64,000 nucleotides of DNA from the NCBI GenBank assembly GCA_036874045.1, contig JAZBRI010000011.1, forward strand, positions 15,828,001-15,892,000, written 5' to 3'. Position numbers and translations under genes: made by a program. The notes under the pieces are model-generated. The model was not told the origin of the DNA, made no database searches, and was given only the letters and a program-made list of their open reading frames with translations. The DNA comes from Cymodocea nodosa. Lineage: Eukaryota; Streptophyta; Magnoliopsida; Alismatales; Cymodoceaceae. The stretch's first letter is position 1. Every line of letters starts with the position of its first letter. Positions 1-23,600 of this stretch are shown here, piece after piece.

Positions 1-544
1 TCAGAACGTGTACACCTCGGGGCTTTGACGCAACACCTGCAAAGGCAGTCAAGAATTTCTGTTCGTAAATCTATGGTATATTATTGGATTTTAAACGGAG
101 AATAAAAGCACGGTTCTGATCAAGTTTGTATGACTATGGTTTCCTTGTTTCCTTCTCATACTATATATCTTCGACAACAGATGTATAAGGGAGATCATTC
201 AGCCTACTTGTAAGCAAAACGAATACCAACATTACAGGTGAGCTTTCAATTTCATCTAAATCTTTCAAAGCAGAACTGCTGAAAAATGGATGAAAACATT
301 CTTAAAGATAAAAAGTGTTACAACAATAAAGAAGCCCCTAAGCTACGGCCTACAAGAGGGTGGGAATATCTGAAAAGAACGGAAAAAGCCAAACCAGCCA
401 AGCAATTTCGTGGACAAGTGATTAAGAAGAAACCTCACGGTTGTCATTGCTTTTCAGAATTGCTTCGGCTAGCCCATTTATCTCCACTTTCAAATGTATT
501 TTGGAGCATAACCTTTGGCAAGTTTCTAGTTAAGCATGATTATA
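1..544. other. 3' flank of the EHD3-like gene
   Basis: No gene recognised. This is AT-rich sequence directly downstream of the stop codon at 545 on the minus strand and probably holds the 3' UTR. An open frame on the plus strand (286-711) runs antisense into the last exon and has no family signature. Confidence 0.5.
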
Positions 545-3500
545 TTACATCCAATGTTCAGGGCCACTTGTCCCTTTTCCTTCCCTCTCACAATTATGAC
601 AGTACCACATGCCATCAGGGATTTCGTCTTGAGGTGGCCTCATACAGTAAGTGTGATAAGCCTCATCACAAGAATCACAAATACAGATCAAATCATCATC
701 TTTATCAGTAAGGCAACCTCTGCATAAACAAGACGGACAGTACCAGTTATTGGGCTGCTGATGCTGGCTTGCCACCTGAGCAGCCCTCAAGCATCTGATG
801 TGGTAGTACTTGTAAGGGCAATGACTATGCGAGCAAACAAGGAACAGCTTGTCTTCCTCCTCACAGCCACCACACTGCTTGCATAAAGGTGCAACTGAAG
901 TAGCCTTTGATGGTTCTGATGAATTGTTACTTTCCGAAGTTGGGATTGGGGACTCCCCTGTACTAACTGCCAAAGCTACCCCATGTTTCTTTCTCCTGCA
1001 TTCCTGATACCTTGGATCATCATGTTGGCACCACATCGTACCCTTGTGGTATAGATGATTATATTGGTAAAAGGACAAGTCTTGCTCCGCTGAAGCCCTC
1101 TTTTTCACACAAGTTGTGCAATACCAACTTCTTGTTACGATTTTCTCAATTGAGGGTGTTATGCATAGGACATGATAAACATCCTCACACCCATCACAAA
1201 TGATGCGGTCTGTCTCATGGGCATCACTGCCACATTTTTTGCAAGTAGAGACAATCTCAAAATGAGATGCCACTCTTTGATCATGTTTAGTAAGAGAGTC
1301 GGCATAGTTAGCCATAAGTTGCAACCGGTCATACAAATCTACAACCATTTCCTTGCCAACAGCAGGACGAGCATCCTGCAGGAAGAAAAAGAACAATTAT
1401 TATATAGCCTTGTATATAATTCATTTAAGTAAAATTACTTCGGAAGAGCTGAGAAGGCTTATTGTGTGGCATAAAAGCCTGCTGACCATTCATATGTTAA
1501 GAGCCAACCAGACCACATGGATAAATTATTTCACTTGCCTCAAACTCCTGTTCACTTGAAGCATTACTGGAGCATCCTCTCACCTGGAGGAGATCCAACA
1601 GAACCAAAATTGGAACTTAATACAGCCATAAAATTATAAGGAGAGACAGCCCTGGGATATGTATGGAGAGAGAAAGAGATTCTAAATAATGCTTCACCAT
1701 CTAAAAACAAAAATATTACCTGCTTCCTACAAGAAGTCTGTGAGAGACTTGAAAGTTCAGAAGCTAAGAGCATCATCTCTTCACCTATATTCAGAAACTT
1801 CTCCAAACTCTGACAGTCATGCAAATCACGAGACAATTAGGAGTGAAAAATATAGCAGAATTCCACCCACTCTTGTCAATCCTTGGAGAAGAAGAATCTG
1901 AAGATGACTGAATAACTCGGCCAAGATTTAGCAACTCAAGAAAGATACAAAAAATCCTTTAGGAATCTAGACTAGAAATGTAGAACCCTAAATACTATAG
2001 TGAGTACATTAGATAGGATGGAAACAACAAATACAAGGCAATGAACTTCGTAAGCACTACAAGTTAGACCAGCATATTAAAATTATCAAAAGCTTAATAC
2101 GAAAAATAAAACATTTTAAATATCAAAACTAAAAGAAATAGAAGAAAACCCTAAAATTATATGGTTAGAAATTGTAAGAAAAGATTTAAATTTATGTAAC
2201 TGAATCAAAGATTTGGTCATAGACAAAAACATATGGAAGAAAAAGATTCATGTGGTCAACCTCACATAATGAGATTATAACATGAGTTGTTTAAATACCA
2301 AAAACTCATTACATACCAATTGAATATCCTCAACAGCACATTCTATGGAATCTTGGTAGGTTCCATCTTTTATCTTTGAGATAACTGCACTAAAGTCACC
2401 ACTATCTGTGTTCTTACCACATTGGAAGTTTTCACACAGCAAATTGCATAGTAAAGCAAACTTATGTGAAACCAGAAGGTCAAACAAAATGGTCTGACTC
2501 TTTGAAATGCTGGTGTTAGTGTCTTCTGCACCATTTACTGAGATTCGCACTCCATTGGGAACAACTTCATTGTGTTGGAGAACACTGTAAGTCAGGCTGC
2601 CATGCCTTTGCAATTTGTAATGACATTTCCGATGATCCTCCTATATTGCAATGAAGACAATGGAATAAAACAGGATTATGTGAATAACTTAAAATTCAAT
2701 AAATACATAAGTGGTTGAAGTAAAAATATTGGTAGCCACTGAAAATAGTAAAATACCTTCTTGTATACACCATTAAGATTAATGCTGTTAGAATATCCAG
2801 GAGGGCCACATGGAAGTGGCCTTCCAATGCAACTCTGTAAACTACATCCTTTTTTCAAATCTGTTGATCGTGCTAATTTCTCAAATACATTCTTCCAATG
2901 AGACACTATTCTTTGTTGCCCACCAATCTCACCGTTACCATTACACAGAAATGCTTGATGTGGCATTTTCATCATCTGCCAAATCACAATCGTCCAAGAC
3001 ATTGTAAATATCGATGCATTGCATGAAAGTGAATTAAGTATATAGTTAAGAAAACTTGGAGCTCGTAGAGATGGCTATAAATATGAATTGTGATGAATCA
3101 AAAGTTGGGAAATCTTGAGTTAAGGCAAACAAATGCATGATTAGTTTCAGAAGTGGTGGTCCTAAGAACATATATTATACGAATTTAATTTCTTTTTCCC
3201 ATTTTTTATGGTGCAGAATCACCCAGCTGATGCATGTGAGCATTCCCCAGATGCAACAAGCACAGAACATAAAAATTAATTTACAGTCCTTTAACACATT
3301 TTTTTAATGTGCTGAGCCCTTTTTACAAGCTGCTAACTCTAGATTCTGTAATATGCGTTTTTGGGACTAGACTAGCAATAGGCTATGCAAATTTGCAGAA
3401 AATTTAAGGAGACATTTGATAACGATTATTTCAATTCTTAGTATAAAAATAAGTTGTTATTTTAAGGTTCCATTTGGTAAAGATTATTTTAATCTAGCAT

Positions 3501-4450
3501 ATGAAAATAAATTAACATTTTTACAAAAACTGTAGAATTCAACTTTTTCCATTCAATATTTTTAGTTGATAAGTGCAACATTTTAAAGTTAACGTATAGA
3601 AATAAGCTGACATATAAAAAATACTCTTGGTAATGATTATCGAAAAACGTTAGTGTATTTTCATATGCTTGTTGAAATAGTCATTATCAAGCACTGCCTA
3701 AGAAAACTACTGATATTTTTAGTTCAAAGTGGAGTATTTTATAAGTTGATGTATGAAAGTAAGTTGACATAGAAATCGTGTTTTTTTTAAAAAAAAACAC
3801 TGACTTATTATCGTACACTAAATAAATTAATCGTTACCAAACATCCTCAAGAGATTAATGACGAATTGAGATTGATGAATGTTGCTGCATATCTGGTCCT
3901 AGGTCCACAAAGAAGTCCAGCAGCGGCAAACCAACTTACGGATGTTTACTAGAGAAAGGGAGAAAATTATCTACCCAGCAAAACCACATTTCGGTATTGA
4001 GAATTGGAAAATCAGTTCACTTACGAGACAAACCAACACAAACCAATAAGTAATGGCTGGACAACTAATTCCACATAAAGGAAAACCAAGTTTCCTCGAT
4101 TATGGTTTTAGGTAGGATACCCTAAAATTTCCGTCCCTAAAGCTGCATCTCGCGGTTTAATCCGTTCCAACCAGAAAACAAACGAAAGCGATCTCATATT
4201 TCAGGACAATTTTTTTTTTTAAAAAAAAAAACAACAACAAAAACCTTCAAGAGCCCAATTTTCCCCATCCCCTATCTTCAACAACATCCCATACCTGGTT
4301 TTCCGACGGAGAGTGGGGTTCCCCGCGGGGGCTGATCCAAGACCCGGACCTTCGACATTTTCTCCTCTTATAGGTGATGAAACCCTCCGAATTCGAGAAC
4401 GGCCCCACTTTTCCTCCTTCACAAACCCCATTTGCCTCCCTTGACGCCAT
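545..4450 (-). CDS. EHD3: EHD3-like PHD-finger protein (triple PHD)
   Basis: Five coding exons, all in phase 0: 4450-4295, 2975-2757, 2640-2317, 1809-1720 and 1375-545. They give 539 residues, close to rice EHD3 (about 563). The N terminus carries a basic TYKRRK segment near residue 26. Exons 2-4 encode a helical region that recalls the degenerate bromodomain-like part of this family. Exon 5 holds three PHD-type zinc modules: the first from C308 (CKKCG...WYCTTC), then two closely linked ones (CKQCGGC...WYCPSC and CRGC...WYCHNC). PHD fingers read histone H3 tails; rice EHD3 promotes flowering by acting above Ehd1. That role is family knowledge, not shown here. The ATG at 4450 fits because exon 1 (52 codons) joins exon 2 in frame. 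The acceptor of exon 2 is the least certain junction: an upstream ATG at 3002 opens the same frame. The alternative name is simply an AT1G77250-type PHD protein. Confidence 0.82.
3409..3848. mobile_element. MITE-like element in EHD3-like intron 1
   Basis: The ends form imperfect terminal inverted repeats: GACATTTGATAACGATTATT at the left, and the complement of 3825-3848 (GATGTTTGGTAACGATTAAT) at the right. Shorter internal copies of the TTGGTAANGATTAT motif occur near 3468, 3625 and 3672 in both orientations. There is no coding capacity. The size (about 440 bp) and AT content suit a non-autonomous DNA transposon. The target-site duplication is not clear. Confidence 0.45.
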
Positions 4451-5872
4451 GACCAGTCCTAATTATCCACCTTTGGTTTAAAATCCCGGTTCCGGCGGAG
4501 TTGCGTCATGGCAGAGCTTCTGGGTCCAAGACCCGCAGCTTGGAGCAGGAGAAGGGGGGGTTGGCGGAGGAGGACGAGCACCGGTGCTGTAATGCTCCGG
4601 TGAGCGACGCAGATCGGCGACGGGACGTTTGGGAGAAAGCGAGAACGGAAAATTTCCCAGATCCGAATAGGGTGAGGGAGGGAGGGAGGGAGGGGCAGAG
4701 TGGTAAACGAGGCCATCGATTTTTTTTATCCTCTTGTTTTCTACGCGATTGATCAACTACGACAGTACAACAAACCATTTACCCACGTCAGCGTAGATGT
4801 TTATAATAAAAAATATTTTAAATATCAATTTCCATTTTTAATTTTGTACAAAATCTCATTTACTCTGACTTAGATGTGGCGAACTATATAATCTATTTTT
4901 ACTATTTAAATTACATAGATAACATAATTCAATATATCACTTTAAATACTTAAAGAACACGTAAATACTTTTTTATTTTTTTTAAAGAAATGCAAATACT
5001 TACTTCAACTGGAAATAACATAATCGATCATCCATGAAAATAAAATTTGAGATAAAATCACAACAATCGTAAGGAAACATCAGTCTACGTCTTGCGGGGG
5101 AAAGTAATTGACACGGTCAAAAAAGGTGACGCTACTTGTGCTGGAACTCTTTAATAGCTGAAGTAGCCTTTCACGTGTCCTTGCAAAAATCTCGGGATAA
5201 CTTACATATTTTTTAACATGTAAATTAGCACGTACATCTATGCTAAGTACAGAAAGTATTGATATACGATTAAATAAATTAAGTAAATTAAACTCCGACC
5301 ACGAGACCGCCGCTGGCATTACAGAAGAAAAGAAAGAGATTCCAACGCACAGACCGGTATAAAGATTTGGATTTATGAGCGCATGACAGGTACGACTGAA
5401 AATTTAAAAATGTTCAAAAGAGCTCCTCCATCTTTTCGTGGTTAGAGTGAGATAGAAAATTTATTTCGTGGGTGAGGGGGACCATATACGGAGAATTAGA
5501 TAGAAAATTTATCATTTTCAGGGGGAACCCTTCGTAAGGTCGTGATATTAAGCTTTGACTATACCAGTAAGACTGCATTAAGTTTGGGAAGAATAAAATA
5601 CTCTCGTACACAAGAAATAACTGGAAGCCGTCTGGCTATAACCAAAAGGTCCAAAACCCCTAAAAAAGAATGAAAAGAAAAACACATTTCTGATTCCAAA
5701 TTATGCGGAAAGGAATGCACATGTACAATTGAAGCCCGTCCTGGATGCAAACAAATGATTATGTACCTATAGGTGGAATATTGAACCAGCAAGAGTATAA
5801 AATGAATCCGATGGGTCTCCGGAGTCTTTTAAGTTGCGTGGTATTCATGCCGTTGATATGGACACGAGCTGC
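4451..5872. other. Promoter region of EHD3-like gene and SGRL 3' flank
   Basis: GC-rich sequence from 4451 to about 4750 lies directly upstream of the EHD3-like ATG and is probably its 5' UTR and core promoter. It includes a run of five GGG blocks at 4676-4695 on the plus strand. The rest to 5872 is AT-rich and shows no gene. Open frames in the GC-rich block on both strands have no family signature and look like composition effects. Confidence 0.5.
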
Positions 5873-8800
5873 TCAGAGAAGGAATGCGACTAGCGCATGG
5901 AGGATCGTTTTGGGGCTTGCCAACCTCATAGTTTTTTCCTCAGCAGCTCTTGATGGATCTGGTATATCTTCAAGAGTTCTCTGAAAAACAAACAAACCGG
6001 ATCTCAGTTAAAAATAATCAAAATGACTATAACGCTCATGGAACATCACAACACCCATACGATTCCAAACAAATAAAGTTCTTCATACATTGATTGCGGA
6101 AATCCCATGAAATCAAGCATGCTTACATGCAGTGATGAGGTTTTATGATTTATAATTTTGTACTTTGCCATTACAAATTAACTCCAGAAATCTTCAGAAA
6201 GAAATATTCTTTTCATTGCACATTAATTTTACCTGTGTCGCATCTCTAAGAGGACCCCAACATTCAACACGATTGTACCTTCTTGTGTTGGAGTGGAAGT
6301 AGACCCATACAGGAGCATCCAGCAACTCAGGATTCTCCTCAAAAAGAATTGAATCACCATATATAACAGATTGAAGAACCTGTCCAAGTAATTGCATACC
6401 AGTTAAGCAAATCAAATTATGTCACAGATGCACTGAGCCCTTCAGTTATCATGCACATACAGTCGTGATAGTGCTACTTGGACGAGAAAAGAATTCCTTT
6501 TTAGTAATTATTACAGCCTAAACCTCACCAATGGCAGTTTCTTGGAGAAGATGTAGTATCTGAATTCTGCTGCAAGATCTTGCAATAAATTGGCACCACT
6601 TACATAGCAATGAACATGCAAAGATGCATCTTCTTTTATCCTCTTCCATTCAGCCACCACATCATCCTTCAGTATTTTAGCCTGCCATCTTCTCAACTGT
6701 TACAGCAAGTTCCAAATGCATTCCTTTGTTAAGGTCCTTCCAAATTGTAAAGAGGTAAACTCCACTACACTTTTTTACTGAAATTAACTTGGCTTTCATG
6801 TTAACTATTCATATCTTATTTCCTTTTTTACAATCATATCTTATTTCCTTTTTGTTTTTAGTTAATTTAAGATGGGGGATAAGCAATGGAACTATACTAA
6901 TTCCTGGTATTGGTAAAGTGGTGTGGGATCATGATTAACCGAAATGGAATTATCCCAATATTTCTAAAGTGCACACAAAGAGAGACCAATTAAGTTTATT
7001 AGTGACAGAGCATGTTGGCAACTCTTAAGGACTATGCAACAGCAAATTCATGATAGCAAGAAGTGTGATGAATTAAAGGGTAATCCCTCCTTCCCATACA
7101 TTATAGAAAAAATATGTGAATTACACTCCAAAATGATGTGTGAACAAAACATACAAGCAGAAGTGTTTGAGACTAAAATTAAGATATTTTTCTTCCTGAA
7201 TTTAACTTCCACAATGTGACATATTCAGACAAACATCAGAATAAGTTAACAGACAACAAAATAAAAAATTATGTTTGTGTGTCAGGTAGGGGAGGGAAAG
7301 GTGATCTACAAACTTGAAAAATATGCAACGATCCTAGGTAGTGCTGAAACATAAAATAAGATAGGCTGAGAGATGACAATTGGATGACCATAGTCTTCTT
7401 GAGAAAAAATGTCAAAAAAAGCAGAAATAGTCCAACAGTTACGATAATTGCCTTCCAAGCAATAAACTTGGGGTTTCATTCCTGACAAATCCAACATATA
7501 TTCTATCAAATTCTCTTTTATTGAACTAGGGACAATATCGAACTTATTTACTTAGAAAAAAGAGTGAGCATTTAAATTATATATGAGAGTTAACAACATC
7601 AACCTTTAGATTAAAGGTGTGGTGACGAAAATTATATACATGCAGAAACTTGATGACACCAAAATATACCACTTCATGAAAAATAGGACACAACCATAAT
7701 TAATTCTGAAAGGTAGGATAAGATCGGATGATAAATGGAAGAATAAAGTTTTCAGTTTCAAGAACAACTTTCAATGCAAGCTTTGCAGACCAACGGTTAG
7801 AATAATTGCCTTCCAAGCAATAGACCTGGGTTTAACTCAGCAAAAACGAAATATATATTCTTTTGAATTTCGTTTTCAAGATTAATAAAAACAACTGACA
7901 AGTACAATTAGATGAAAAATTAACATTTTGTTTGTGGCTTAAATTGAGATGGTTTTATTCACAAATTTAACTTGCTTAAAGACAGTCATTCAACAACAAA
8001 TTTCAAACAAACATTAAAACAGGTCAAAAGAAAATTAAACGAAAAATTTTGTGGCCATGAGAGAAAGGGCAGAAAGACAGATATCAAGACAACATATTTC
8101 ACTCTTTCAAAAATATGGCATTGCCCTAGATAGTGCCAAAACATAGAATATGATAGGCTATGAATTGACAATCGGAAGAGTTTAAGTAATAGATCATAGT
8201 CAAGTTGTTCCTATGTGAGAATTAGCTAGACCAACTCCCTGCAAAACTAAGAACCAACCCAACTTAGTTTGCCAAATTAAAGCCAACCAGTCATCCAAAC
8301 CAATTGAATTGCATATATCACTTTCACAACTTATATTTCCCCTATTCTCGAAATGTGGTTGTTTCAAGCAAATCAATTGTCTCACTTATCAAGGGTCTTT
8401 CCATTTACATAATGAGTTTTAGCCACTCGTAAAAGAACAAACTGATGATGTGACAATTGAAAGAGTTTAACTTTATGATAAACAACATCACTTCACCAAA
8501 AGCATTTGTAGTCCAACGGTTAGGATAATTGCCTTCCAAGCATAGACCTGGGTTAGACTCCCGGCAAACGCATCATCTATTTTTTCTTCTAAATATTATT
8601 TTTTGAAACAAGGGAAAATATCTAACTTGTTTACTTAAATGAAAGAGTGACACCTTGAACAATATACAACAACAACCCAATACAATGTTTTAGATCAAAA
8701 GAAATTAAATTTCTGCACAAACTTCATAACACATAAATATATTACATTGTGAAAAATATGTCACCATTATTCATTAGTGTCAAAAGGCAAAATAAGAAAA

Positions 8801-11800
8801 GAAGAGAAAGTTTTGCATTTCTAAAAACAACTTTCAACAAAGTATTTGTAATAAAACAATTAAGATAATTGATCTAAGTAATAGATCATGGTCAAGTTCT
8901 CCCTATATGGGAATTGGCTAGACCAACTCCCTACAAAACTAGGAACCAACCAACTTAGGTTGCCAAATTCAAGTCAACTAGTCATCCAAACCAATTGAGT
9001 TGTGTAGATCACTTTCACAACCTATATTTCCCCTATTCTCGAAATGTGGTTGTTTCAAGTAAACTAATTGTCTCACTTGTCAAGGTCTTTCCATTTACAT
9101 AATGAGTTTTAGACATTCCTAGAGGAACAAACTAATGATGTGACAATTGAAAGAGTTTAATTTTATGAAAAACAATATCACTACAATAAAAGCGTTTGTA
9201 GTCCAACGGTTAGGATAATTGCCTTCCAAGCAATAGACCCGGGTTCGACTCCCGGCAAACGCATCATCTATTTTTTCTTCTAAATATTATTTTTTGAGAC
9301 AAGGGAAAATATCTAGCTTATTTACTTGAATGAAATAGTGATACATTGAACAATATATGACAACTCCCAATACAATGTTTTAGATCAAAAGAAATTAAAT
9401 TTTTGCATAAACATCGAACTATATCAAATTGTGAAAAATTTGTCACCATCATTCATTAGTGTTGAAAGGAAAAATAAGATAAGAAGAGAAAGTTTTGCAT
9501 TTCTAAGAACAACTTTCAACAAAGCATTTGCAATCAATCAATTAAGATAATTGCATTCTAAGTAATAGATCATGGTCAAGTTGTCCCTATGTGGGAATTA
9601 GCTAGACCAACTCCCTGAAAAACTAGGAATCAACCCAACTTAATTTGCCAAATTCAACCCAACCAATCATCCAAACCAATTGAGTTGTGTATATCACTTT
9701 CACAACTTATATTTCCCTTATTCTCAAAATGTGGTTGTTTCAACCGAATCAACTATCTCACTTGTCAAGATCTTTCCATTTACATAATGAGTTATAGGCA
9801 CTCCTAAAGGAACAAACTTATGATGTGACAAATGGAAAAGCTTAACTTTATGACAAACAATATCACTTCAACAAAAGCGTTTGTAGTCCAAAGGTTAGGA
9901 TAATTGCCTTCCAAGCAATAGACCTGGGTTTGACTACCGGCAAACGCATTATCTATTTTTTCTTCCAAATTTTATTTTATAAGACAAGAAAAAATATCTA
10001 GCTTGTTTACTTAAATGACATAGTCGCACCTTGAACAATCTATTCTTATGATCTTCTAAATTTTATTTTTTAAGATAAGGGAAAATATCTACCTTGTTTA
10101 CTTAAATGAAAGAGTGACACCTTGAACAATATACGACAACACCCAATACAATGTTTTAGATCAAAAGAAATTAAATTTCTGCACAAACTTCATAACATTG
10201 AAATATATTACATTGTGAAAAATATGCCACCATTATTCATTAGTGTTAAAAGGCAAAATAAGATAAGAAGAGAAAGTTTTGCATTTCTAAGAACAACTTT
10301 CAACAAAGCATTTGCAATCAATCAATTAAGATAATTGCATTCTAAGTAATAGATCATGGTCAAGTTCTCCCTACGTGGGAATTGGCTAGACTAACTCCCT
10401 ACAAAACTAGGAAGCAACCCAACTTATGTTACCGAATTCAAGCCAACCAATCATCCAAACCAGTTGAGTTGCGTAGATCACTTTCACAACCTATATTTCC
10501 CCTATTCTCGAAATGTGGTTGTTTCAAGCAAATCAATTGTCTCACTTGTCAAGGTCTTTCCATTTATACAATGAGTCTTAGGCACTCATAAAGTAACAAA
10601 CTTATGATGTGACAATTAGAAGAGTTTAACTTTATGACAAACAATATCACTTCAACAAAAGCGTTTGTAGTCCAACGGTTAGGATAATTGCCTTCCAAGC
10701 AATAGATCCGGGTTCGACTCCCGGCAAACGCATCATCTATTTCTTCTTCTAAATTTTATTTTTTAAGACAAGGAAAAATATCTAGCTTGTTTACTTAAAT
10801 GACATAGTGGCACCTTGAAAAATTTATTCTTATGATCTTCTCAATTTTCTTTTTTAAGATGCTTTGAGCAATCTACTCTTTCAAATTCCGATAAATGCAT
10901 CATTTATTTTTTCTTCTAAATTTTATTTTTTAAGATAAGGAAAAATATCTAACTTGCTTACTTAAATGAAATGGTGACACCTTGATCTTCTAAATTTTCT
11001 TTTTTGAGACAAGGGAAAATATCTAGCTTGTTTACTTAAATGAAAAAGTGATACCTTAAACAATATACAATAACTCTCGATACAATGTTTTAGATCAAAA
11101 GAAATTAAATTTCTGCACAAACTTCATAACACCGAAATAAATTACATTGTGAAAAATATGTCACCAATAGTCATTAGTGTTGAAAGGCAAAATAAGATAA
11201 GAAGAGAAAGTTTTGCATTTCTAAGAACAACTTTCAACAAAGCATTTTCAATCAAACAATTAAGATAATTGCATTCTAAGTAATAGATCACGATCAAGTT
11301 GTCCCTATGTGGGAATTGGCTAGACCAACTCCCTGAAAAACTAGGAATCAACCCAACTTAGTTTGCCAAATTCAAGCCAACCAATCGTCCAAACCAATTG
11401 AGTTGTGTATATCGCTTTCACAACTTATATTTCCCCTATTCACAAAATGTGATTGTTTCAACCGAATCAACTATTTCACTTGTCAAGATCTTTCCATTTA
11501 CATAATGAGTTTTAAGCACTCCTAAAGTAATAAACTTATGATGTGACAATTGGAAAAGCTTAACTTTATGACAAGCAATATCACTTCAACAAAAGCGTTT
11601 GTAGTCCAACGGTTAGGATAATTGCCTTCCAAGCAATAGATCCGGGTTCGACTCCCGGCAAACGCATCATCTATTTTCTCTTCTAAATTTATTTTTTAAG
11701 ACAAGGAAAAATATCTACCTTGTTTACTTAAATGACATAGTCGCACCTTGAACAATCTATTCTTATGATCTTCTAAACTTTCTTTTTTGAGACAAGGAAA

Positions 11801-14800
11801 AATATCTACCTTGTTTACTTAAATGAAAGAGTGACACCTTAAACAATATACAATAACTCCTAATACAATGTTTTAGATTAAAAGAAATTAAATTTCTGCA
11901 CAAACTTCATAACACCGAAGTATATTACATTGTGAAAAATATGCCACCATTATTCATTAGTGTTAAAAGGCAAAATAAGATAAGAAGAGAAAGTTTTGCA
12001 TTTCTAAGAACAACTATCAATAAAGCATTTGCAATCAATCAATTAAGATAATTGCATTCTAAGTAATAGATCATGGTCAAGTTGTCCCTACGTGAGAATT
12101 GGCTAGACTAACTCCCTACAAAACTAGGAAGCAACCCAACTTAGGTTACCGAATTCAAGCCAACCAGTCATCCAAACAAGTTAAGCTGCGTAGATCACTT
12201 TCACAACATATATTTCCCCTATTCTTGAAATGTAGTTGTTTCAAGCAAATCAATTGTCTCACTTGTCAAGGTCTTTCCATTTACACAATAAGTCTTAGGC
12301 ACTCCCAAAATAACAAACTTATGATGTGACAATTAGAAGAGTTTAACTTTATGACAAACAATATCACTTCAACAAAAGCGTTTGTAGTCCAACGGTTAGG
12401 ATAATTGCCTTCCAAGCAATAGACCCGGGTTCGACTCCCGGCAAACGCATCATCTATTTTTTCTTCCAAATTTTATTTTATAAAACAAGAAAAAATATCT
12501 AGCTTGTTTACTTAAATGACATAGTTGCACCTTGAACAATCTATCCTTATGATCTTCTAAATTTTCTTTTTTGAGACACTTTTAACAATCTACTCTTTCA
12601 AATTTTGGCAAATGCATCATTTATTTTTTCTTCTAAATTTTATTTTTTAAGACAAGGGAAACTATCTAGCTTGTTTACTTAAATGAAAAAGTGATACCTT
12701 AAACAATATACAATAACTCTCAATACAATGTTTTAGATCAAAAGAAATTAAATTTCTGCACAAACTTCATAACACCAAAATATATTACATTGTGAAAAAT
12801 ATGCCACCATTATTCATTAGTGTTGAAAGGCAAAATAAGATAAGAAGAGAAAGTTTTGCATTTCTAAGAACAACTTTCAACAAAGCATTTGCATTCTAAG
12901 TAATAGATCATGGTCAAGTTGTCCCTACATGGGAATTGGCTAGACTAACTCCCTACAAAACTAGGAAGCAACCCAACTTATGTTACCGAATTCAAGCCAA
13001 CCAATCATCCAAACCAGTTGAGTTGCGTAGATCACTTTCACAACCTATATTTCCCCTATTCTTGAAATGTGGTTGTTTCAAGCAAATCAATTGTCTCACT
13101 TGTCAAGCTCTTTCCAATTACACAATGAGTCTTAGGCACTCCTAAAGTAACAAACTTATGATGTGACAATTGGAAGAGTTTACTTTATGACAAACAATAT
13201 CACTTTAACAAAAGTGTTTGTAGTCCAACAATTAGAATAATTGCCTTCCAAGCAATAGACCTAGGTTCGACTCCTGACAAACGCATCATCTATTTTTTCT
13301 TCCAAATTTTATTTTTTAAGACAATAAAAAATATCTAACTTGTTTACTTAAATGACAAAGTGGCACCTTGAACAATCTATTCTTATGATCTTCTAAATTT
13401 TATTTTTTGAGATAAGGGAAAATATCTAGCTTGTTTACTTAAGAGTGACACCTTGAACAATATACGACAACACCCAATATGACAAACGCATCACCTATTT
13501 TTTCTTCCAAATTTTATTTTTTAAGATGAGAAAAAATATCTAGCTTGTTTACTTAAATGACATGGTCGCACCTTGAACAATCTATTCTTATGATCTTCTA
13601 AATTTTATTTTTTAAGATAAGGGAAAATATCTAGCTTGTTTACTTAAAAGAAAGAGTGACACCTTGAACAATATACGACAACACCCAATACAATGTTTTA
13701 GATCAAAAGAAATTAAATTTCTGCACAAACTTCATAACATTGAAATATATTACATTGTGAAAAATATGCCACCATTATTCATTAGTGTTAAAAGGCAAAA
13801 TAAGATAAGAAGAGAAAGTTTTGCATTTCTAAGAACAACTTTCAACAAAGCATTTGCAATCAATCAATTAAGATAATTGCATTCTAAGTAATAGATCATG
13901 GTCAAGTTCTCCCTACGTGGGAATTGGCTAGACTAACTCCCTACAAAACTAGGAAGCAACCCAACTTATGTTACCGAATTCAAGCCAACCAATCATCCAA
14001 ACCAGTTGAGTTGCGTAGATCACTTTCACAACCTATATTTCCCCTATTCTCGAAATGTGGTTGTTTCAAGCAAATCAATTGTCTCACTTGTCAAGGTCTT
14101 TCCATTTATACAATGAGTCTTAGGCACTCATAAAGTAACAAACTTATGATGTGACAATTAGAAGAGTTTAACTTTATGACAAACAATATCACTTCAACAA
14201 AAGCGTTTGTAGTCCAACGGTTAGGATAATTGCCTTCCAAGCAATAGATCCGGGTTCGACTCCCGGCAAACGCATCATCTATTTCTTCTTCTAAATTTTA
14301 TTTTTTAAAACAAGGAAAAATATCTAGCTTGTTTACTTAAATGACATAGTGGCACCTTGAAAAATCTATTCTTATGATCTTCTCAATTTTCTTTTTTGAG
14401 ATGCTTTGAGCAATCTACTTTTTCAAATTTCGATAAATGCATCATTTATTTTTTCTTCTAAATTTTATTTTTTAAGATAAGGAAAAATATCTAACTTGTT
14501 TACTTAAATGAAATGGTGACACCTTGATCTTCTAAATTTTCTTTTTTGAGACAAGGGAAAATATCTAGCTTGTTTACTTAAATGAAAAAGTGATACCTTA
14601 AACAATATACAATAACTCTGAATACAATGTTTTAGATCAAAAGAAATTAAATTTCTGCACAAACTTCATAACACCGAAATAAATTACATTGTGAAAAATA
14701 TGTCACCAATAGTCATTAGTGTTGAAAGGCAAAATAAGATAAGAAGAGAAAATTTTGCATTTCTAAGAACAACTTTCAACAAAGCATTTTCAATCAAACA

Positions 14801-17800
14801 ATTAAGATAATTGCATTCTAAGTAATAGATCACGATCAAGTTGTCCCTATGTGGGAATTGGCTAGACCAACTCCCTGAAAAACTAGGAATCAACCCAACT
14901 TAGTTTGCCAAATTCAAGCCAACCAATCGTTCAAACCAATTGAGTTGTGTATATCGCTTTCACAACTTATATTTCCCCTATTCACAAAATGTGATTGTTT
15001 CAACCGAATCAACTATTTCACTTGTCAAGATCTTTCCATTTACATAATGAGTTTTAAGCACTCCTAAAGTAATAAACTTATGATGTGACAATTGGAAAAG
15101 CTTAACTTTATGACAAACAATATCACTTCAACAAAAGCGTTTGTAGTCCAACAGTTAGGATAATTGCCTTCCAAGCAATAGATCCGGGTTCGACTCCCGG
15201 CAAACGCATCATCTATTTTCTCTTCTAAATTTATTTTTTAAGACAAGGAAAAATATCTACCTTGTTTACTTAAATGAAAGAGTGACACCTTAAACAATAT
15301 ACAATAACTCCCAATACAATGTTTTAGATTAAAAGAAATTAAATTTCTGCACAAACATCATAACACCGAAATATATTACATTGTGAAAAATATGCCACCA
15401 TTATTCATTAGTGTTAAAAGGCAAAATAAGATAAGAAGAGAAAGTTTTGCATTTCTAAGAACAACTATCAATAAAGCATTTGCAATCAATCAATTAAGAT
15501 AATTGCATTCTAAGTAATAGATCATGGTCAAGTTGTCCCTACGTGAGAATTGGCTAGACTAACTCCCTACAAAACTAGGAAGCAACCCAACTTAGGTTAC
15601 CGAATTCAAGCCAACCAGTCATCCAAACAAGTTGAGCTGCGTAGATCACTTTCACAACATATATTTCCCCTATTCTTGAAATGTAGTTGTTTCAAGCAAA
15701 TCAATTGTCTCACTTGTCAAGGTCTTTCCATTTACACAATAAGTCTTAGGCACTCCCAAAATAACAAACTTATGATGTGACAATTAGAAGAGTTTAACTT
15801 TGTGACAAACAATATCACTTCAACAAAAGCGTTTGTAGTCCAACGGTTAGGATAATTGCCTTCCAAGCAATAGATCCGGGTTCGACTCCCGGCAAACGCA
15901 TCATCTATTTTTTCTTCCAAATTTTATTTTATAAAACAAGAAAAAATATCTAGCTTGTTTACTTAAATGACATAGTTGCACCTTGAACAATCTATCCTTA
16001 TGATCTTCTAAATTTTCTTTTTTGAGACAAGGAAAAATATCTACCTTGTTTACTTAAATGAAAGAGTGACACCTTAAACAATATACAATAACTCCCAATA
16101 CAATGTTTTAGATTAAAAGAAATTAAATTTCTGCACAAACTTCAAACATCAAAATTTATTACATTGGGAAAAATATGCCACCATCATTTATTAGTGTTGA
16201 AAGGAAAAATAAGATAAGAAGAGAAAGTTTTGCATTTCTAAGAACAACTTTCTACTTAGATAAAAACACGAGATGAAATTGATCATACCAAATTTATCAC
16301 TTTCTAAAAAATAAAAATACTTAATTTGCTTACTCAGATGAAAGTGACTCTTTAAAGTCAAATATTTGTGGCTTAAATTGGTATAGTTTTGTTCTTGAAT
16401 TTAACTTCCAAGATGACAAACTCATTCAACATAATAATTTAAAACAAACATAAAAACATGTCAATAGGAAATTAAATGCAAATTAAGTTTGTTGAGGGAG
16501 GGAGGGCTGGTGCACAAACTTGATGACAACAAAATATTCCACCCTTAGAAAAATATGGCATTGTCCTAGGTAGTGCTGAAACATAGAATACAATAGGCTA
16601 CGAGATGACAATAAGAAGAGAATAGTTTTTTGAGAAAAAGTTTCAACAAAGCATTTGCAGTCCAACATTTAAGATAAATAATTGCCCTCTAAACAATAAA
16701 CCCAGGTTTGACTCCTATTAAATGCATCAACTATTCTTATATTATTTTGAATCTCCTTTTTTGAACTATGGAAAATATCTTATTCACTTGATGAAAGAGT
16801 AACACTTCAAACTATATACGATAACTCATACACCAACTTTAAGATTAAAAGAATAGTGATGAAACTTATATTTGCACACAAAGATTCTTTTTGAAAAATA
16901 TCTGTGCACAAGGTTGATAACACATGAATATATCACCTTCTGAAAAATATGATGCTGTCACAGATAGTTCTGAAATAGAATAAAACAGGCTATGAGATGA
17001 CAAATGGAAGAATATAATTTTTTGAGAAAATTTTCAACAAAGTGTTGGTCCAATGAATAGAATAGTTGTCTTCCAAGTTCCAAGCAATAGACCTAGGTTG
17101 AACTCCCAGCAAATACATCATCTATTGCTATATTCTTTTGAATTTTATTTTTTTTACCAGAAAAAATGTCCAACTTGTTTAGTTAGATGAAAGAATGACA
17201 CTTTAACCAATATATGGCAACTTACACTATGAACTTTACGATTAAAAGAGTAGTGATGGAAATTATATCTGCGCGCAAACTTTTTTTTTGAAAATTATCT
17301 GTGCACAAACTTATGACACTAAAATATATCACTTTCTGAAAAATATGCCACCAACACAGTTAGAGTTGAAAGGCAAAGTGAGGTAGCCTTCGAAATGAAA
17401 GAATGACTCCTTAAGCTATATATGGCAGCTGACACCAGCCACTATATCCAGGATCCTTGTGAAACTGCTTATCTTGCAGAATGTATCAAAATATGGGCAT
17501 TGACCATTGAAAAACCAAAAATCATTTAGTTGCACATATATGATAGATGTATGGTACAAGTCAGGATGTTGAGGATAGATTTGATAGAAATTTAAGATAA
17601 AAACATAAGATGTTTGTTTTAGTACGTATGACAGGGTTTAGGGTTTTACAAAGTTAAAGGAAACTTTTAGGGTTAAACTTGGGTCAAACACAACACATTC
17701 CATGGCTGATACAATGCCAACTGCTACGCTCCTAGCCTGTTGTTGTTTACCATTTTCAATCAGTCATTTGTAAAAGCTTCTGTTTTTTTTTTAACTTTTG

Positions 17801-19054
17801 CAGAAATAGATATGTGTTACATTATTACTCATCGACAAAGGCAGATCACAGAGATGAATTATGTCAACAGTATCTTCCAGCGGGCAAAAAGTAAACAAAG
17901 TGACGCTGATGTTTAAAATATAAAAATATCGTTACCTGATCAATGTTGATACTGTTGGAGACAGCAAGAGTGAGGTTGGCCGTGAAATCACAGTGTGTAA
18001 GTGTATAGGTCCTCGGAAAAGTAGTTGACAGTTGATTCCCCATCTCTCCTCCGTGGAAAACCACATCCAATTTCGATGGTTCAAATCGCATAGGTGGGCC
18101 CAAAAGCCGAGCAGCCTAACAATGAACCAAAATACACATGCCAGTAACATAAGTGCCAGACCATTCACCATAGGAAAAAAAATGCAGGCTTTGCGTTGTT
18201 AATAAACAGTTCTCGTATAGTCTAACACGAACTTCCATCACTAGTTTAATTCAACATCAACAACCTCGGACAATGAGTCAATTGAAACTTAAATAATCAG
18301 ATAAGATTCAATTCTGTTTTGTGCATAGGCATCATATGGTACCAGAGTTTATCTTGTTTTTACTTTAAAAAAAAGTGGCAATCCGGCATCAGCCCAGCGC
18401 CATTGCAACCGAAAACTTTCTCTTCCAACATACCAAAAAAGTTCAATAAATAAAAGCCCCGACCATTCACAACCACCCAAAACCTCCATTGAAGCAAACC
18501 TTGAGCACGAGAGGCAATCAGGCGTAAGCCCAGAGCCATTGCAACCGAAAACTTTCTCTTCCAACATACCAAAAAAGTTCAATAAATAAAAGCCCCGACC
18601 ATTCACAACCACCCAAAACCTCCATTGAAGCAAACCTTGAGCACGAGAGGCAATCAGGCGTAAGCCCAGAGCCATTGCAACCGAAAACTTTCTCTTCCAA
18701 CATACCAAAAAAGTTCAATAAATAAAAGCCCCGACCATTCACAACCACCCAAAACCTCCATTGAAGCAAACCTTGAGCACGAGAGGCAATCAGGCGTAAG
18801 CCCAGAGCCATTGCAACCGAAAACTTTCTCTTCCAACATACCAAAAAAGTTCAATAAATAAAAGCCCCGACCATTCCCAACCACCCAAAACCTCCATTGA
18901 AGCAAACCTTGAGCACGAGAGATCCAGAGGACGGGACAACAACGGGCTTGACGGAGACTCCTCCTCTTCCTCCTTTGGAATGCGAGATCGGCGACGAGGA
19001 AGAACAAGACGAGATGCTGCATTGGAAAGCGTTCCGAGTGGAGAAAGAAGCCAT
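5873..19054 (-). CDS. SGRL: STAY-GREEN-LIKE protein (SGRL), plastid
   Basis: Five coding exons, all in phase 0: 19054-18908, 18115-17936, 6696-6529, 6379-6233 and 5980-5873, giving 249 residues. Exon 1 (49 residues, Ser-rich, poor in acids) reads as a chloroplast transit peptide. The core shows the stay-green family signatures FPRTYTLTHCDFTANLTLAV (about residues 82-101), DDVVAEWKRIKEDASLHVHC, FRYYIFSKKLPL, and VWVYFHSN with VECWGPLRDA. The C terminus stops soon after this core, without the Cys-rich motif of SGR1/SGR2 (NYE1), so the protein belongs to the SGRL subgroup (Arabidopsis SGRL is about 260 residues). Family members act on chlorophyll a in the thylakoid: SGR is a Mg-dechelatase, and SGRL is reported to prefer chlorophyllide a. 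Intron 2 is 11,239 bp and contains the tRNA-Gly array. Intron 1 starts inside a 136-bp tandem repeat. Two CACGTG boxes lie upstream. Confidence 0.93.
7421..7493 (+). pseudogene. tRNA-Gly relic, left edge of array
   Basis: The centre (ATAATTGCCTTCCAAGCAAT) keeps the tRNA-Gly anticodon arm. The acceptor stem (GCAGAAATAG at the 5' side) and the T arm (GGGTTTCATT) are broken. Confidence 0.6.
7780..7849 (+). pseudogene. tRNA-Gly(UCC) pseudogene
   Basis: The D arm (CCAACGGTTAGAATA) and anticodon arm (ATTGCCTTCCAAGCAAT) are still recognisable. The acceptor stem does not pair, and the T arm reads CTGGGTTTAACTCAG in place of the intact sequence. Confidence 0.65.
8503..8573 (+). pseudogene. tRNA-Gly(UCC) pseudogene, one base deleted
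   Basis: Close to the intact copies, but the 3' side of the anticodon stem has lost one A (GCATAGACC instead of GCAATAGACC). The T loop reads TTAGACT instead of TTCGACT, which damages the B box, and the first stem has a G-to-A change. It is probably not functional. Confidence 0.75.
9192..9263 (+). tRNA. tRNA-Gly(UCC), intact
   Basis: 72 nt with all four stems paired: acceptor GCGTTTG with CAAACGC, D stem GTCC with GGAT, anticodon stem ATTGC with GCAAT around loop CTTCCAA (anticodon TCC), and T stem CCGGG with CCCGG. The discriminator base is A, and CCA is not encoded, as is normal in nuclear genes. The internal B box GGTTCGACTCC is perfect. A T6 run that should stop Pol III follows about 10 bp downstream. 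The upstream sequence CTACAATAAAA is AT-rich with a CAA motif, as is typical of plant tRNA genes. Confidence 0.95.
9877..9948 (+). pseudogene. tRNA-Gly(UCC), damaged T arm
   Basis: The acceptor and anticodon arms are intact. The T arm reads CTGGGTTTGACTACCGG, so the T loop has lost its conserved C and one T-stem pair is broken. The D loop has a C-to-A change. The B box is weakened, so this is probably a recent pseudogene. Confidence 0.7.
10661..10732 (+). tRNA. tRNA-Gly(UCC), intact
   Basis: Same 72-nt structure as the copy at 9192, with a single C-to-T difference in the variable loop (AGATCCGGG). All stems pair and the B box is perfect. CAACAAAA lies directly upstream and T-rich terminator sequence downstream. 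It belongs to the duplicated segment, and its twin is at 14203. Confidence 0.94.
11595..11666 (+). tRNA. tRNA-Gly(UCC), intact
   Basis: 72 nt, identical to the copy at 10661, with anticodon TCC, all stems paired and a perfect B box. The downstream T run is interrupted (TATTTTCTCTTC), so termination may be a little weaker. Its twin at 15137 has one D-loop change. Confidence 0.94.
12378..12449 (+). tRNA. tRNA-Gly(UCC), intact
   Basis: 72 nt, identical to the copy at 9192 including the AGACCCGGG variable region. Stems, anticodon TCC, A and B boxes, upstream CAA and the downstream T6 run are all present. Confidence 0.95.
13214..13285 (+). pseudogene. tRNA-Gly(UCC) pseudogene
   Basis: It begins GTGTTTG. 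The D loop reads AACAATTA and lacks both conserved G residues. The T stem reads CTAGG against CCTGA, with mismatches. The anticodon arm is unchanged. It lies between the two copies of the segmental duplication. Confidence 0.8.
14203..14274 (+). tRNA. tRNA-Gly(UCC), intact
   Basis: 72 nt, identical to its twin at 10661. All stems pair, the anticodon is TCC and the B box is perfect. Upstream TTCAACAAAA and a T-rich tail are present. Confidence 0.94.
15137..15208 (+). tRNA. tRNA-Gly(UCC), near-intact
   Basis: Identical to its twin at 11595 except for a G-to-A change in the D loop (AACAGTTA instead of AACGGTTA). The change removes one of the two conserved G residues that contact the T loop. The stems and B box are intact. 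It may still be transcribed, but folding or processing could suffer. Confidence 0.8.
15829..15900 (+). tRNA. tRNA-Gly(UCC), intact
   Basis: 72 nt, all stems paired, anticodon TCC. It differs from its twin at 12378 only by the variable-loop base (AGATCC against AGACCC). That suggests one later mutation or a short gene-conversion tract. Confidence 0.94.
16651..16726 (+). pseudogene. tRNA-Gly relic, right edge of array
   Basis: The tRNA-Gly outline (GCATTTGCAGTCCAACATTT ... AGGTTTGACTCC) is still visible. It has an insertion (AAATA) after the D arm and an altered anticodon loop (CCCTCTAAA), so the anticodon is lost. Confidence 0.65.
17041..17117 (+). pseudogene. tRNA-Gly relic, outermost right copy
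   Basis: Strongly decayed. The anticodon region contains a local duplication (TTCCAAGTTCCAAGCAATAG). The T arm reads CTAGGTTGAACTCCCAG. The 5' acceptor strand is not recognisable. Confidence 0.6.
18375..18918. repeat. 136-bp tandem repeat (4 units) over the SGRL exon 1 donor
   Basis: Units start at 18375, 18511, 18647 and 18783, with an exact period of 136 bp. Units 2-4 are almost identical; the distal unit (18375) is diverged at its start. Read on the minus strand, each unit boundary carries CTCGTGCTCAAG followed by GTTTGC, the 5' splice site of SGRL exon 1 (real junction at 18908). The repeat therefore contains the last 11 or so bases of exon 1 and copies the donor at 18772, 18636 and 18500. 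Long open frames through the repeat arise because 136 is not a multiple of 3 and the units have few stop codons. Confidence 0.93.
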
Positions 19055-20632: not shown

Positions 20633-23600
20633 TCATTGGCTCGTATCTACTTCTTGAGGACGCCATGTTGTCTTCTTCAGGCAGAGCAACCCTTCTTTCT
20701 CCTTTGAGTATGTCAATTGTATTACCCAGTGCAAGGACCTTGCTATTTGCTCCAACTCGTTGATTGTCTCAACATCGTCTCGTACCACGATCTTCCCTTC
20801 AGGTCTCAAAATTCGATCCACTTCTACCATGACAGTTAACAACTTGCACCTGCAAGAGGATTTGTAGTCCAAAAAAACCGAATGACCGAATACACAGATG
20901 CTTCAGGCAAATGCAGAAACGAAACATACACGTAACATAAAAAATGTAAAAAGAACTCGTCATGGAGCAGTAGTGGTAGTGATAATTGCATGGGAGATAT
21001 GAAAGTGGTCCTTGTTCCCTTTAATGAACTCAAGGATTGTTTCGTTATTGATATACTTTCTTTAAATGACGCTTAATGTTTTTATTGGACAATAAACTCA
21101 GTTTTTTTATTTATGAAGGAAAGACCACCAGCATAACCACTGGAATTTAGTAGAGTACATTGACTTTCGACCAATAGATCTGCAGATGGTATATTTAGTT
21201 TTCCGTTCTACCATAAGAAACCTAGATTCCAATCTATGCAAAAAAAAACTATCATTATCAAAAAAAAAAGAACTTGTCTTCAAATGCAAGTCCATCTTTA
21301 TTTTGTACAAGGTTATAACAAGGTTAATTCCAAATATAAGTAACAAGATGAGAAGAAAAATAATATAGAAAAGAAAAGCACCGCACCAATGGAGTAATTA
21401 AACCCAACAGTTAAACCAAAATCAACATCCCCATGAAACTTTCAAAAAGCAATGGTAGCTGCTAAGACTACATCATTTGGAAAATAATTTACCTTTATCG
21501 AGTAATAAAAATATATAAAAGAAACATTCTGAGGAAATGTATGAAGCCAACCTCTTTTTTATCTTGGAAAAGAGATGATCCGCATGGAGAAGGTCATAAG
21601 ATCTAGGGTAGGTGCTGAATGATTCACACCAGTCATGGTACATTCCAAACAAACCCCTCTCGTAAATAATGGGCAGGGTGTCGGCAGAATCTACAGAGAC
21701 TACATTCATGACCCATACATTCACGTCTCTCAATGCTGCAGCAAAACTGCAAAAGATTGACAACAGAGAATGTAACATTAAGTTTAAACAGTGTGTATCA
21801 AAAACTTGTTTACTTTGATTAGATCAATGGAACTTGGCCAATAAATTAGCCTGATATTACATCAGAAAAAAGTTGAACAAAATGTAAACATATTAATCAA
21901 AATTGCAATATTACCATTTATAGATAGACAGGACTGCTTGATTGGATGAGAAAGAAAAGGAGTTACAAGTCATTTAGGTCAACCAAATTCATAAGAGATT
22001 TGGATGTAAATGCTTGAACTTTGAAATAATGAAATATAAAAGAGAATTCAGATTTTCAAGGCTTCAATATCCTCAATAGATACACAAAAAAAATATTTCT
22101 GGGGCTAACTGCTAAGATTGAATAACCCTAGGAAAGAAACAATGTCATTCTGCTTCACTTTTTTATGGCATTAAAGATAACTTTTTTTAACTACATTGGA
22201 GAAAGGGAAATATAAATTTCTTCAAAATCCTGCACAGGAGTGTTGTGAATGTAATTCCAATGTGAGCCTTCCATAATCATAGATGTGGCAAAAAATAAAC
22301 CAGGCTATATTCACAGTTTTCACCTGGATTACATGCTACAAAATTTTAATTTCAGAACTCAAAAACATGGAAACACAGGTTATTCAAAATAGTAACCAGA
22401 TCTTTGTCACAACTTACCCTCCATATACAGATCTCATGTCCATGACATTTCTCACATTTGACCAGTCAATTCCCATTCCATTCAAATAGGATTTGTTAAC
22501 AACACGCTTCCAGTGCTCATAGTCAGCTTTGAAGTCTTCAGGTACCGCTTGACCATAAACCCCAATTTGAGAACTGTTCAGCCAAACTGGGGGTGTCGCT
22601 AACCTTTTTGGCCACTGGGTTGGCCACTGTGAACCTCGAACTGAAGGATCTTCAGGCACCCGATGCATGCATGCTTGCAATAGAATATTCCTATAAAATT
22701 GAAATTAAAAGAGAATAAGCTGGTGGCTGTCGTACTTTCAAGTACACAATGAATACTTGGCATGTAAAGCATTTATTTAGTTTGGCAAGCAAAAGGAATA
22801 GAAAAATTACAGGCACTAACCAGGCAGCGTTTGGGTCATCTGAATCATTGCAGAGAGGTGGATCATTTGTCACTCTTTTATCATAGCACTCATTGGAAGA
22901 AGGTTTCCTGTATACTGCCATACCTACTTGGTTCAAAGCATCCTTTGTCTTTGAAACCAACTCCCAGCACATGGACTTCGTCAGTTCTGACATTGCTGCC
23001 ATTGAGAGTCACAGATCAACTTCCATTCTGTAAAAATGCTCATATACACACAAAAATCTATGGTGCAAACATTAAGGATATAGTCTCCTATACAGCCACA
23101 TAAAACATATCTTTTTGATGAATTAACTTAAAAGAAAGCTTGAAGGTGTACTATCACCAAGACTAGCCACTAGATGGAGTAGTATTCAGCCCTTCCACCC
23201 CCCCCCCCACAAATAATAATAATAGTAACTTTCATGATTTACAGCTCCTAAATCTACTTATTAGAGATTTGATCAGAATCTTCGATGTCTATCACAGAGG
23301 ATACAATGTTCCAAATACTGTGTTGTGTACTAGGAAGCACCAACATGATCCAGGGATTCGAATTCAACAAGTTGGACTCAAGAATTCGATGATTTTCTAT
23401 AATTTAGGATATGACTCACCTTGGATACACTATTGAATAAATGATATATTTAAATATAAATACTTAAAGACTTAAATAACATATTCAAATGACATAAAAT
23501 AGGTATATAAGTTATAAATAATATAATTCTATAATAATAAAACACGTATACAAATATTATAATAGTTATCACATATTATTTTAATAACATACAACAACAA

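Follow-up and report, generated by a model that had tools for sequence, protein, structure and literature searches.

How does a tandem array of tRNA genes form inside an intron of a protein-coding gene, and are its intact members working genes or only the youngest copies of a repeat? We addressed this question in a 64-kb stretch of the Cymodocea nodosa genome (assembly GCA_036874045.1, contig JAZBRI010000011.1, C11:15828001-15892000; assembly searched, 374.6 Mb in 28 contigs), hereafter called the window, whose positions serve as coordinates for all features described. The window contains 14 full-length copies of a tRNA-Gly(UCC) gene, arranged in tandem within an 11,239-bp intron of a Staygreen-family gene and antisense to it. 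This locus is probably a long-lived array of tRNA genes (tDNAs) evolving by birth and death, the intact members of which would be transcription-competent RNA polymerase III (Pol III) genes.

Detection and anatomy of the array

ARAGORN identified eight tRNA-Gly(TCC) genes in the 64-kb window (starting at 9192, 9877, 10661, 11595, 12378, 14203, 15137, and 15829). All of them lie within 9192-15900 on the plus strand, and the program found no tRNA of any other type. Rfam placed 10 tRNAs above its gathering score, with 72.9 bits at six copies (9192, 10661, 11595, 12378, 14203, and 15829) and lower scores at 15137 (71.2 bits), 9877 (56.9 bits), 13214 (50.4 bits), and 8502 (49.5 bits); matches at 7428 (22.5 bits) and 7782 (22 bits) missed the cut-off of 29. 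Local alignment with the tRNA body (positions 6001 to 19000) added copies at 16651 and at approximately 17043-17117, which brought the number of full-length copies to 14. The 14 copies scored 26 to 72 in this alignment, and eight half-length relics, described below, scored 20 to 25. Since 200 dinucleotide-shuffled versions of the intron gave a top plus-strand score of 17, a chance origin of the 14 copies is excluded. No score exceeded 14 on the intron's minus strand or on either strand of 1-6600 and 18001-64000. The full-length copies are as follows:

7422..7493, plus strand, damaged outer copy of tRNA-Gly(UCC) (local alignment; Rfam 22.5 bits at 7428-7485)
7779..7850, plus strand, damaged outer copy of tRNA-Gly(UCC) (local alignment; Rfam 22 bits at 7782-7844)
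8502..8572, plus strand, damaged tRNA-Gly(UCC) with one base missing from the anticodon arm (Rfam 49.5 bits)
9192..9263, plus strand, structurally perfect tRNA-Gly(UCC), GACCC type (ARAGORN; Rfam 72.9 bits)
9877..9948, plus strand, damaged tRNA-Gly(UCC) (ARAGORN; Rfam 56.9 bits)
10661..10732, plus strand, structurally perfect tRNA-Gly(UCC), GATCC type, first T run TTT (ARAGORN; Rfam)
11595..11666, plus strand, structurally perfect tRNA-Gly(UCC), GATCC type (ARAGORN; Rfam)
12378..12449, plus strand, structurally perfect tRNA-Gly(UCC), GACCC type (ARAGORN; Rfam)
13214..13285, plus strand, damaged tRNA-Gly(UCC) with eight substitutions, all G:C to A:T (Rfam 50.4 bits; alignment)
14203..14274, plus strand, structurally perfect tRNA-Gly(UCC), GATCC type, first T run TTT (ARAGORN; Rfam)
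15137..15208, plus strand, near-perfect tRNA-Gly(UCC), GATCC type, with a single D-loop G to A change (ARAGORN; Rfam 71.2 bits)
15829..15900, plus strand, structurally perfect tRNA-Gly(UCC), GATCC type (ARAGORN; Rfam)
16651..16726, plus strand, damaged full-length tRNA-Gly, old outer copy (local alignment)
17043..17117, plus strand, damaged full-length tRNA-Gly, old outer copy whose 5' part aligns poorly (local alignment)

An original prediction, made from the sequence, had described these copies as six structurally perfect, one near-perfect, and seven damaged, and the same count emerged from ARAGORN, Rfam, and local alignment. It had also named the UCC anticodon, the upstream CAA, and the downstream T runs. 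All of these were found, the CAA and T runs being read by eye in all 14 flanks, although the first downstream T run is merely TTT at 10661 and 14203. The intact copies would be expected to be Pol III competent because they retain the A and B boxes, which follow from the intact tRNA bodies, together with the CAA and T runs. The minimum-free-energy fold was a cloverleaf for 9192 alone; as the same did not hold for the other five of the six copies folded, RNA folding was dropped as structural proof.

The host intron and the exons around it were delimited by reading the splice sites (donor CAG/GTAACG, acceptor TAACAG/TTG) and by matches to the Staygreen profile:

17936..18115, minus strand, host exon preceding the intron, covering Staygreen profile 1-51 (5' limit approximate)
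6697..17935, minus strand, host intron, 11,239 bp, GT-AG; gene of the Staygreen family, probably SGRL
6529..6696, minus strand, host exon after the intron, covering Staygreen profile 53-101
6194..6379, minus strand, following host exon, Staygreen profile 98-147 (3' limit approximate)

Joined, the three exons encode 165 amino acids that form a continuous Staygreen domain (PF12638, profile 1-147 of 147, E 3.4e-57). Genome probe searches scored part of the candidates, and the genome counts reported here are lower bounds. The 165-amino-acid stretch had at least six genome matches, comprising the three exons of the window gene and three exons of one paralogue on C18, in which the intron at the same position is approximately 104 bp long. 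SGRL proteins are distinguished from SGR proteins by the absence of a C-terminal cysteine-rich motif. Because the C18 paralogue carries a downstream Cys-rich stretch (seen by eye), which presumably corresponds to the motif of SGR proteins, the window gene is probably SGRL; its last exon lies outside the gene model. The predicted location of the array, in an 11.2-kb intron of a stay-green-like gene, thus held, but its orientation had been overlooked: the host exons are on the minus strand and the tRNAs on the plus strand, so that the whole array is antisense to its host gene. The host pre-mRNA therefore lacks the tRNA sense strand and would not be expected to be cut by tRNA-processing enzymes. 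A 136-bp tandem repeat (18377-18921, 4.0 copies at 98%) apparently lies in the preceding intron of the same gene, near its likely first exon.

A dimeric repeat and its probable amplification

Every one of the nine gaps between the 10 central full copies (8502-15829) holds one decayed half-tRNA relic, a feature that the original prediction had also overlooked. These relics match approximately positions 1-53 of the tRNA, without the 3' part:

8845..8892, plus strand, decayed 5' half-tRNA relic (local alignment)
9524..9576, plus strand, decayed 5' half-tRNA relic (local alignment)
10308..10360, plus strand, decayed 5' half-tRNA relic (local alignment)
11242..11292, plus strand, decayed 5' half-tRNA relic (local alignment)
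12025..12077, plus strand, decayed 5' half-tRNA relic (local alignment)
12886..12915, plus strand, decayed half-tRNA relic with a 23-column deletion, limits approximate (unit alignment; scores 14 alone)
13850..13902, plus strand, decayed 5' half-tRNA relic (local alignment)
14784..14831, plus strand, decayed 5' half-tRNA relic (local alignment)
15476..15528, plus strand, decayed 5' half-tRNA relic (local alignment)

With a half relic in each gap, the array is a dimeric higher-order repeat composed of a full tRNA and a half relic. In seven of the nine gaps, the distance from the start of the relic to the start of the following full copy is exactly 353 bp, and the left-hand outer copies are approximately 357 bp apart (7422 to 7779). 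Short tRNA 3'-tail fragments open repeats near 10893, 12607, 13483, and 14435. One larger segment is itself repeated:

9941..12578, plus strand, three-unit block, recurring at 13483-16029 with 98.6-98.9% identity

The block was probably copied in a recent duplication, with two haplotypes kept side by side in the assembly as a possible alternative. The Kimura two-parameter (K2P) distance is 0.010-0.0145 for the duplicated block. Two pairs of older units gave 0.07 and 0.11, and the outermost two units on the right gave 0.34, these ages being expressed in substitutions. A young center and an old edge would fit unequal recombination in a tandem array.

The simplest history would run from a monomer of approximately 350 bp through the loss of a 3' half to amplification of the resulting dimer. 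A unit of this length carrying one tRNA-Gly(UCC) would have started to duplicate in the Staygreen-like intron, antisense to the host, and one tRNA of an adjoining pair would then have lost its 3' half. The dimer of full tRNA and half relic may have become the amplified unit through unequal recombination, with the three-unit block as the latest event, leaving young copies at the center and old, degenerate outer copies on the right. Each intact copy would be capable of producing tRNA-Gly(UCC) as a Pol III gene in its own right. Selection or conversion may hold some lineages intact while others decay, and the enrichment of this decay in G:C to A:T changes at CpG would imply heritable cytosine methylation and partial silencing.

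An origin of the array as a dispersed transposon was rejected, as two spacer probes matched the array alone (10 of 10 and 12 of 12 among the genome matches found) and a self-comparison of the array in the window gave no inverted match and no match beyond the intron; the rejection does not extend to a very old or local mobile origin. A tRNA-snoRNA dicistron was likewise rejected, given that Rfam at E values up to 1 returned only tRNA matches in the intron.

Preserved and decaying copies

Private substitutions were counted in the columns ungapped in all 10 central units (71 tRNA and 431 flank columns), the four outer full copies being left out. For the three paired lineages, only changes common to both members were counted, which excludes, for example, the D-loop G to A change of 15137. 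The counts (tRNA:flank) are as follows:

8502, 2:35
9192, 0:16
9877, 3:6
13214, 6:4
11595+15137, 0:11
10661+14203, 0:3
12378+15829, 0:7

The tRNA:flank ratio is heterogeneous among the seven lineages (permutation p 8e-5; 2.6e-4 without 8502), although these lineages were defined after the alignment was viewed. Four lineages total 0:37 and two total 9:10 (Fisher 1.2e-5, for groups picked after viewing the data). The tRNA at 13214 departs from the canonical body at eight sites, all G:C to A:T, and its upstream flank differs from that of 10661 at 9 of 376 sites. Positions 13214-13285 are thus a case of localized rapid decay amid nearly unchanged flanks. Judging from sequence, the split between preserved and decaying copies can be explained by selection on some copies, by conversion, or by both.

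The decay itself has a distinct signature, which the original prediction had not mentioned. Across the eight full copies that are not perfect, including 15137, 50 of 75 substitutions are G:C to A:T (gapped positions not deducted), and 32 of these 50 fall on the 12 bases of six CpGs. CpG bases were hit in 32 of 96 cases versus 18 of 208 for other G/C bases (Fisher 2.4e-7, a value that is too small since the copies share ancestry); scored as distinct positions, these changes affect all 12 CpG bases and 12 of the 26 other G/C bases (p 0.001). The CpG observed/expected ratio is 0.31 in the spacer versus 0.59 in the window. Loss of G:C to A:T at CpG is the trace left by methylated cytosines. The methylation-like, CpG-deamination-like signature of the decayed full copies points to heritable methylation of cytosines, which would leave the array partly silenced.

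Glycine and proline tRNA genes elsewhere in the genome

A 40-base tRNA-Gly(UCC) probe (three or fewer mismatches, ungapped) had at least 15 genome matches. Of the 15 found, the array accounts for 10, and the remaining five are spread over C1, C9, C20, and C7 (two matches); four of these dispersed copies look intact (Rfam 72.7-72.9 bits), and the fifth, on C7, has mismatched stems. Ten structurally perfect tRNA-Gly(UCC) genes were thus found in this whole-genome count, which the original prediction had proposed as a check, and six of them lie in the array. The GACCC and GATCC variants are both present in the array and among the dispersed copies.

The original prediction also overlooked a second glycine array in this genome, consisting of tandem tRNA-Gly(GCC) genes at C24:3935540-3944762. 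Eight of at least 15 genome matches to a tRNA-Gly(GCC) probe lie in C24:3936962-3944762. ARAGORN found eight genes around this array, one decayed (3935540) and seven intact, and a truncated copy is also present. Along the intact bodies, one T-loop site alternates (A, G, A, G, A, G, A). Differences among the upstream flanks, which reach 57 of 392 sites, are independent of this alternation, so we do not claim a dimer for the GCC array. A common origin of the two arrays was rejected, as their spacers are unrelated and similarity is confined to the tRNA bodies. A tRNA-Pro probe had at least nine genome matches, all dispersed. Plant surveys find tRNA-Pro genes in clusters more often than those of any other isotype (PMC11700998, PMC12652284); two glycine arrays together with dispersed proline genes contrast with these surveys, glycine and proline being the isotypes compared here. 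Four weaker tRNA matches (56.7-59.9 bits) lie within approximately 72 kb at C21:6327966-6400049.

Elsewhere in the window, also on the minus strand, are a PHD-finger protein exon (545-1396; PF00628) and exons of a putative methyltransferase gene (20633-24702; PF03141, Methyltransf_29, in three open reading frames tested).

Alternative explanations

Several points weigh against a birth-and-death array with transcription-competent members. Summed over lineages, the tRNA bodies have 11 substitutions in 71 columns and the flanks 82 in 431 (0.155 versus 0.190 per site); with the two rates alike, the tRNA bodies are under no overall constraint, and the idea that all intact copies are constrained was dropped. 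Calling a copy intact and then finding it unchanged is partly circular, a problem that the heterogeneity test alone escapes, and that test has the post hoc lineages noted above. Gene conversion could hold copies identical without selection. The half relics have no CpG excess by distinct positions (3 of 6 versus 7 of 20, p 0.64, in a test that rests on six CpG bases and has little power), and a drift from G:C to A:T is expected regardless in a spacer of 30% G+C. The claim of the original prediction that the array adds real tRNA-Gly(UCC) dosage is two-sided: it is plausible from the array's share of genome matches and perfect genes, and it is tempered by tRNA bodies that change about as fast as their flanks and by the CpG-deamination-like decay of damaged copies. 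The other role that it offered, a block of Pol III units within a Pol II gene, is a hypothetical one.

One alternative is that the array is an inert intronic satellite that happens to carry a tRNA gene, its intact copies being merely young duplicates irrelevant to the tRNA pool. We regard this as a real but minority possibility. The similar overall rates are what it predicts, the near-perfect copy and two of the six perfect ones stem from the recent block duplication, and the CpG-biased decay of full copies suggests silencing; Arabidopsis clusters are reported to be largely silent (PMC10701932, PMC12308677), though the SYY cluster shows activity in root tips. An inert satellite does not readily account for the heterogeneous tRNA:flank ratio, for the 0 tRNA versus 16 flank private changes of 9192, or for three pairs (9192/12378, 10661/11595, and 11595/15829) that are approximately 10-12% apart upstream yet differ at 0 of 72 tRNA positions. 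The same pairs make it unlikely that gene conversion, within the array or with dispersed copies, rather than selection on each copy, keeps the bodies alike, as conversion would need very short tracts, limited to 72 bp, between such diverged flanks; damaged copies, 13214 for one, have moreover stayed unrepaired despite near-identical neighbors. Conversion would explain why the array and the dispersed copies each include both GACCC and GATCC, and why 12378 and 15829, with 2 of 400 differences upstream and 0 of 70 downstream, differ at the GACCC/GATCC site, for which a single mutation suffices too.

That the assembly places two haplotypes side by side, as blocks 10661-12378 and 14203-15829, is improbable even though the 98.6-98.9% identity of the blocks is a plausible level of heterozygosity. 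Such an error would remove just three of the 14 full copies and two of the six perfect ones, and the K2P distances of the other units (0.07-0.34) cannot be haplotypic. Very improbable is a role as a regulatory block for the host gene, acting through Pol III occupancy, antisense interference, or slow transcription of the 11-kb intron. The antisense orientation of the tRNAs and the short intron of the SGR-like paralogue fit such a role; however, the sequence offered no evidence of regulation, the orientation of a tandem array stems from one founding event, and long plant introns are commonly spliced. A stronger version of the functional reading, in which the array is the main, selectively maintained source of tRNA-Gly(UCC), switched by tissue or coupled to the activity of the host gene, is also doubtful; it would place glycine decoding and a chlorophyll-related gene at a single locus. 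If it were true, much of the glycine tRNA supply of this lineage would, with the GCC array, have moved into tandem arrays.

A birth-and-death array with competent members remains the explanation we favor. If expressed, it would supply the six perfect genes counted above. Its preserved and decaying copies adjoin one another with alignable flanks and thus provide a good internal control for asking which of selection, conversion, and recency sustains clustered tRNA genes. The array would also be useful for asking whether CpG methylation drives the death of such genes.

Comparison with known tRNA gene clusters

The original prediction knew of no tRNA array nested in a protein-coding intron, but a precedent exists: genes and pseudogenes of the Arabidopsis tRNA-Pro clusters are described as often overlapping introns of opposite-strand genes (PMC10701932). 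Antisense-intronic tDNA clusters are therefore already known, and the present array, in an intron of an opposite-strand gene, matches that type. For a Gly(UCC) intronic array, no description came up in searches of the open-licence PMC literature, the supplements of the surveys lying outside these searches. Neighboring tDNAs less than 1 kb apart count as a pair in one survey (PMC12652284), and the 10 copies from 8502 to 15829 start 685-989 bp apart. Another survey sets three or more tDNAs per kb, a threshold that it terms stricter than those of other studies (PMC11700998); here, no 1-kb stretch contains the starts of more than two full copies. The array is thus a plant tandem tDNA cluster by the pair criterion only.

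A closer comparison can be made with individual clusters. The Arabidopsis tRNA-Pro clusters share with the array a single isotype in tandem and a mixture of genes and pseudogenes (PMC10701932); in contrast, the array is Gly(UCC), occupies a single large intron of one gene, and is a dimer with an alternating half relic. The tRNA-Cys(GCA) cluster on A. thaliana chromosome 5 is also built of short tandem units (approximately 0.4 kb, versus an ancestral unit of approximately 0.35 kb here) and has a pseudogene at its edge and gain and loss of whole units, but it comprises four genes in the reference and overlaps annotated Helitrons (PMC10701932), whereas the spacer probes here match the array alone, with no relation to a mobile element found. 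The A. thaliana SYY cluster (tRNA-Ser/Tyr/Tyr) is similar in that a multi-tRNA unit expanded in tandem and in having tRNA-like pseudogenes; DNA methylation and the activity in root tips have been reported for it (PMC12308677). Unlike the array, SYY consists of other isotypes in 27 units, with no other annotated genes inside (PMC10701932), and lies partly in constitutive heterochromatin. Within C. nodosa, the C24 array is likewise a tandem array of glycine tRNA genes, with a spacing of approximately 1.0-1.4 kb and two alternating T-loop variants, but it differs from the UCC array in its GCC anticodon, its seven intact copies, and its unrelated spacer.

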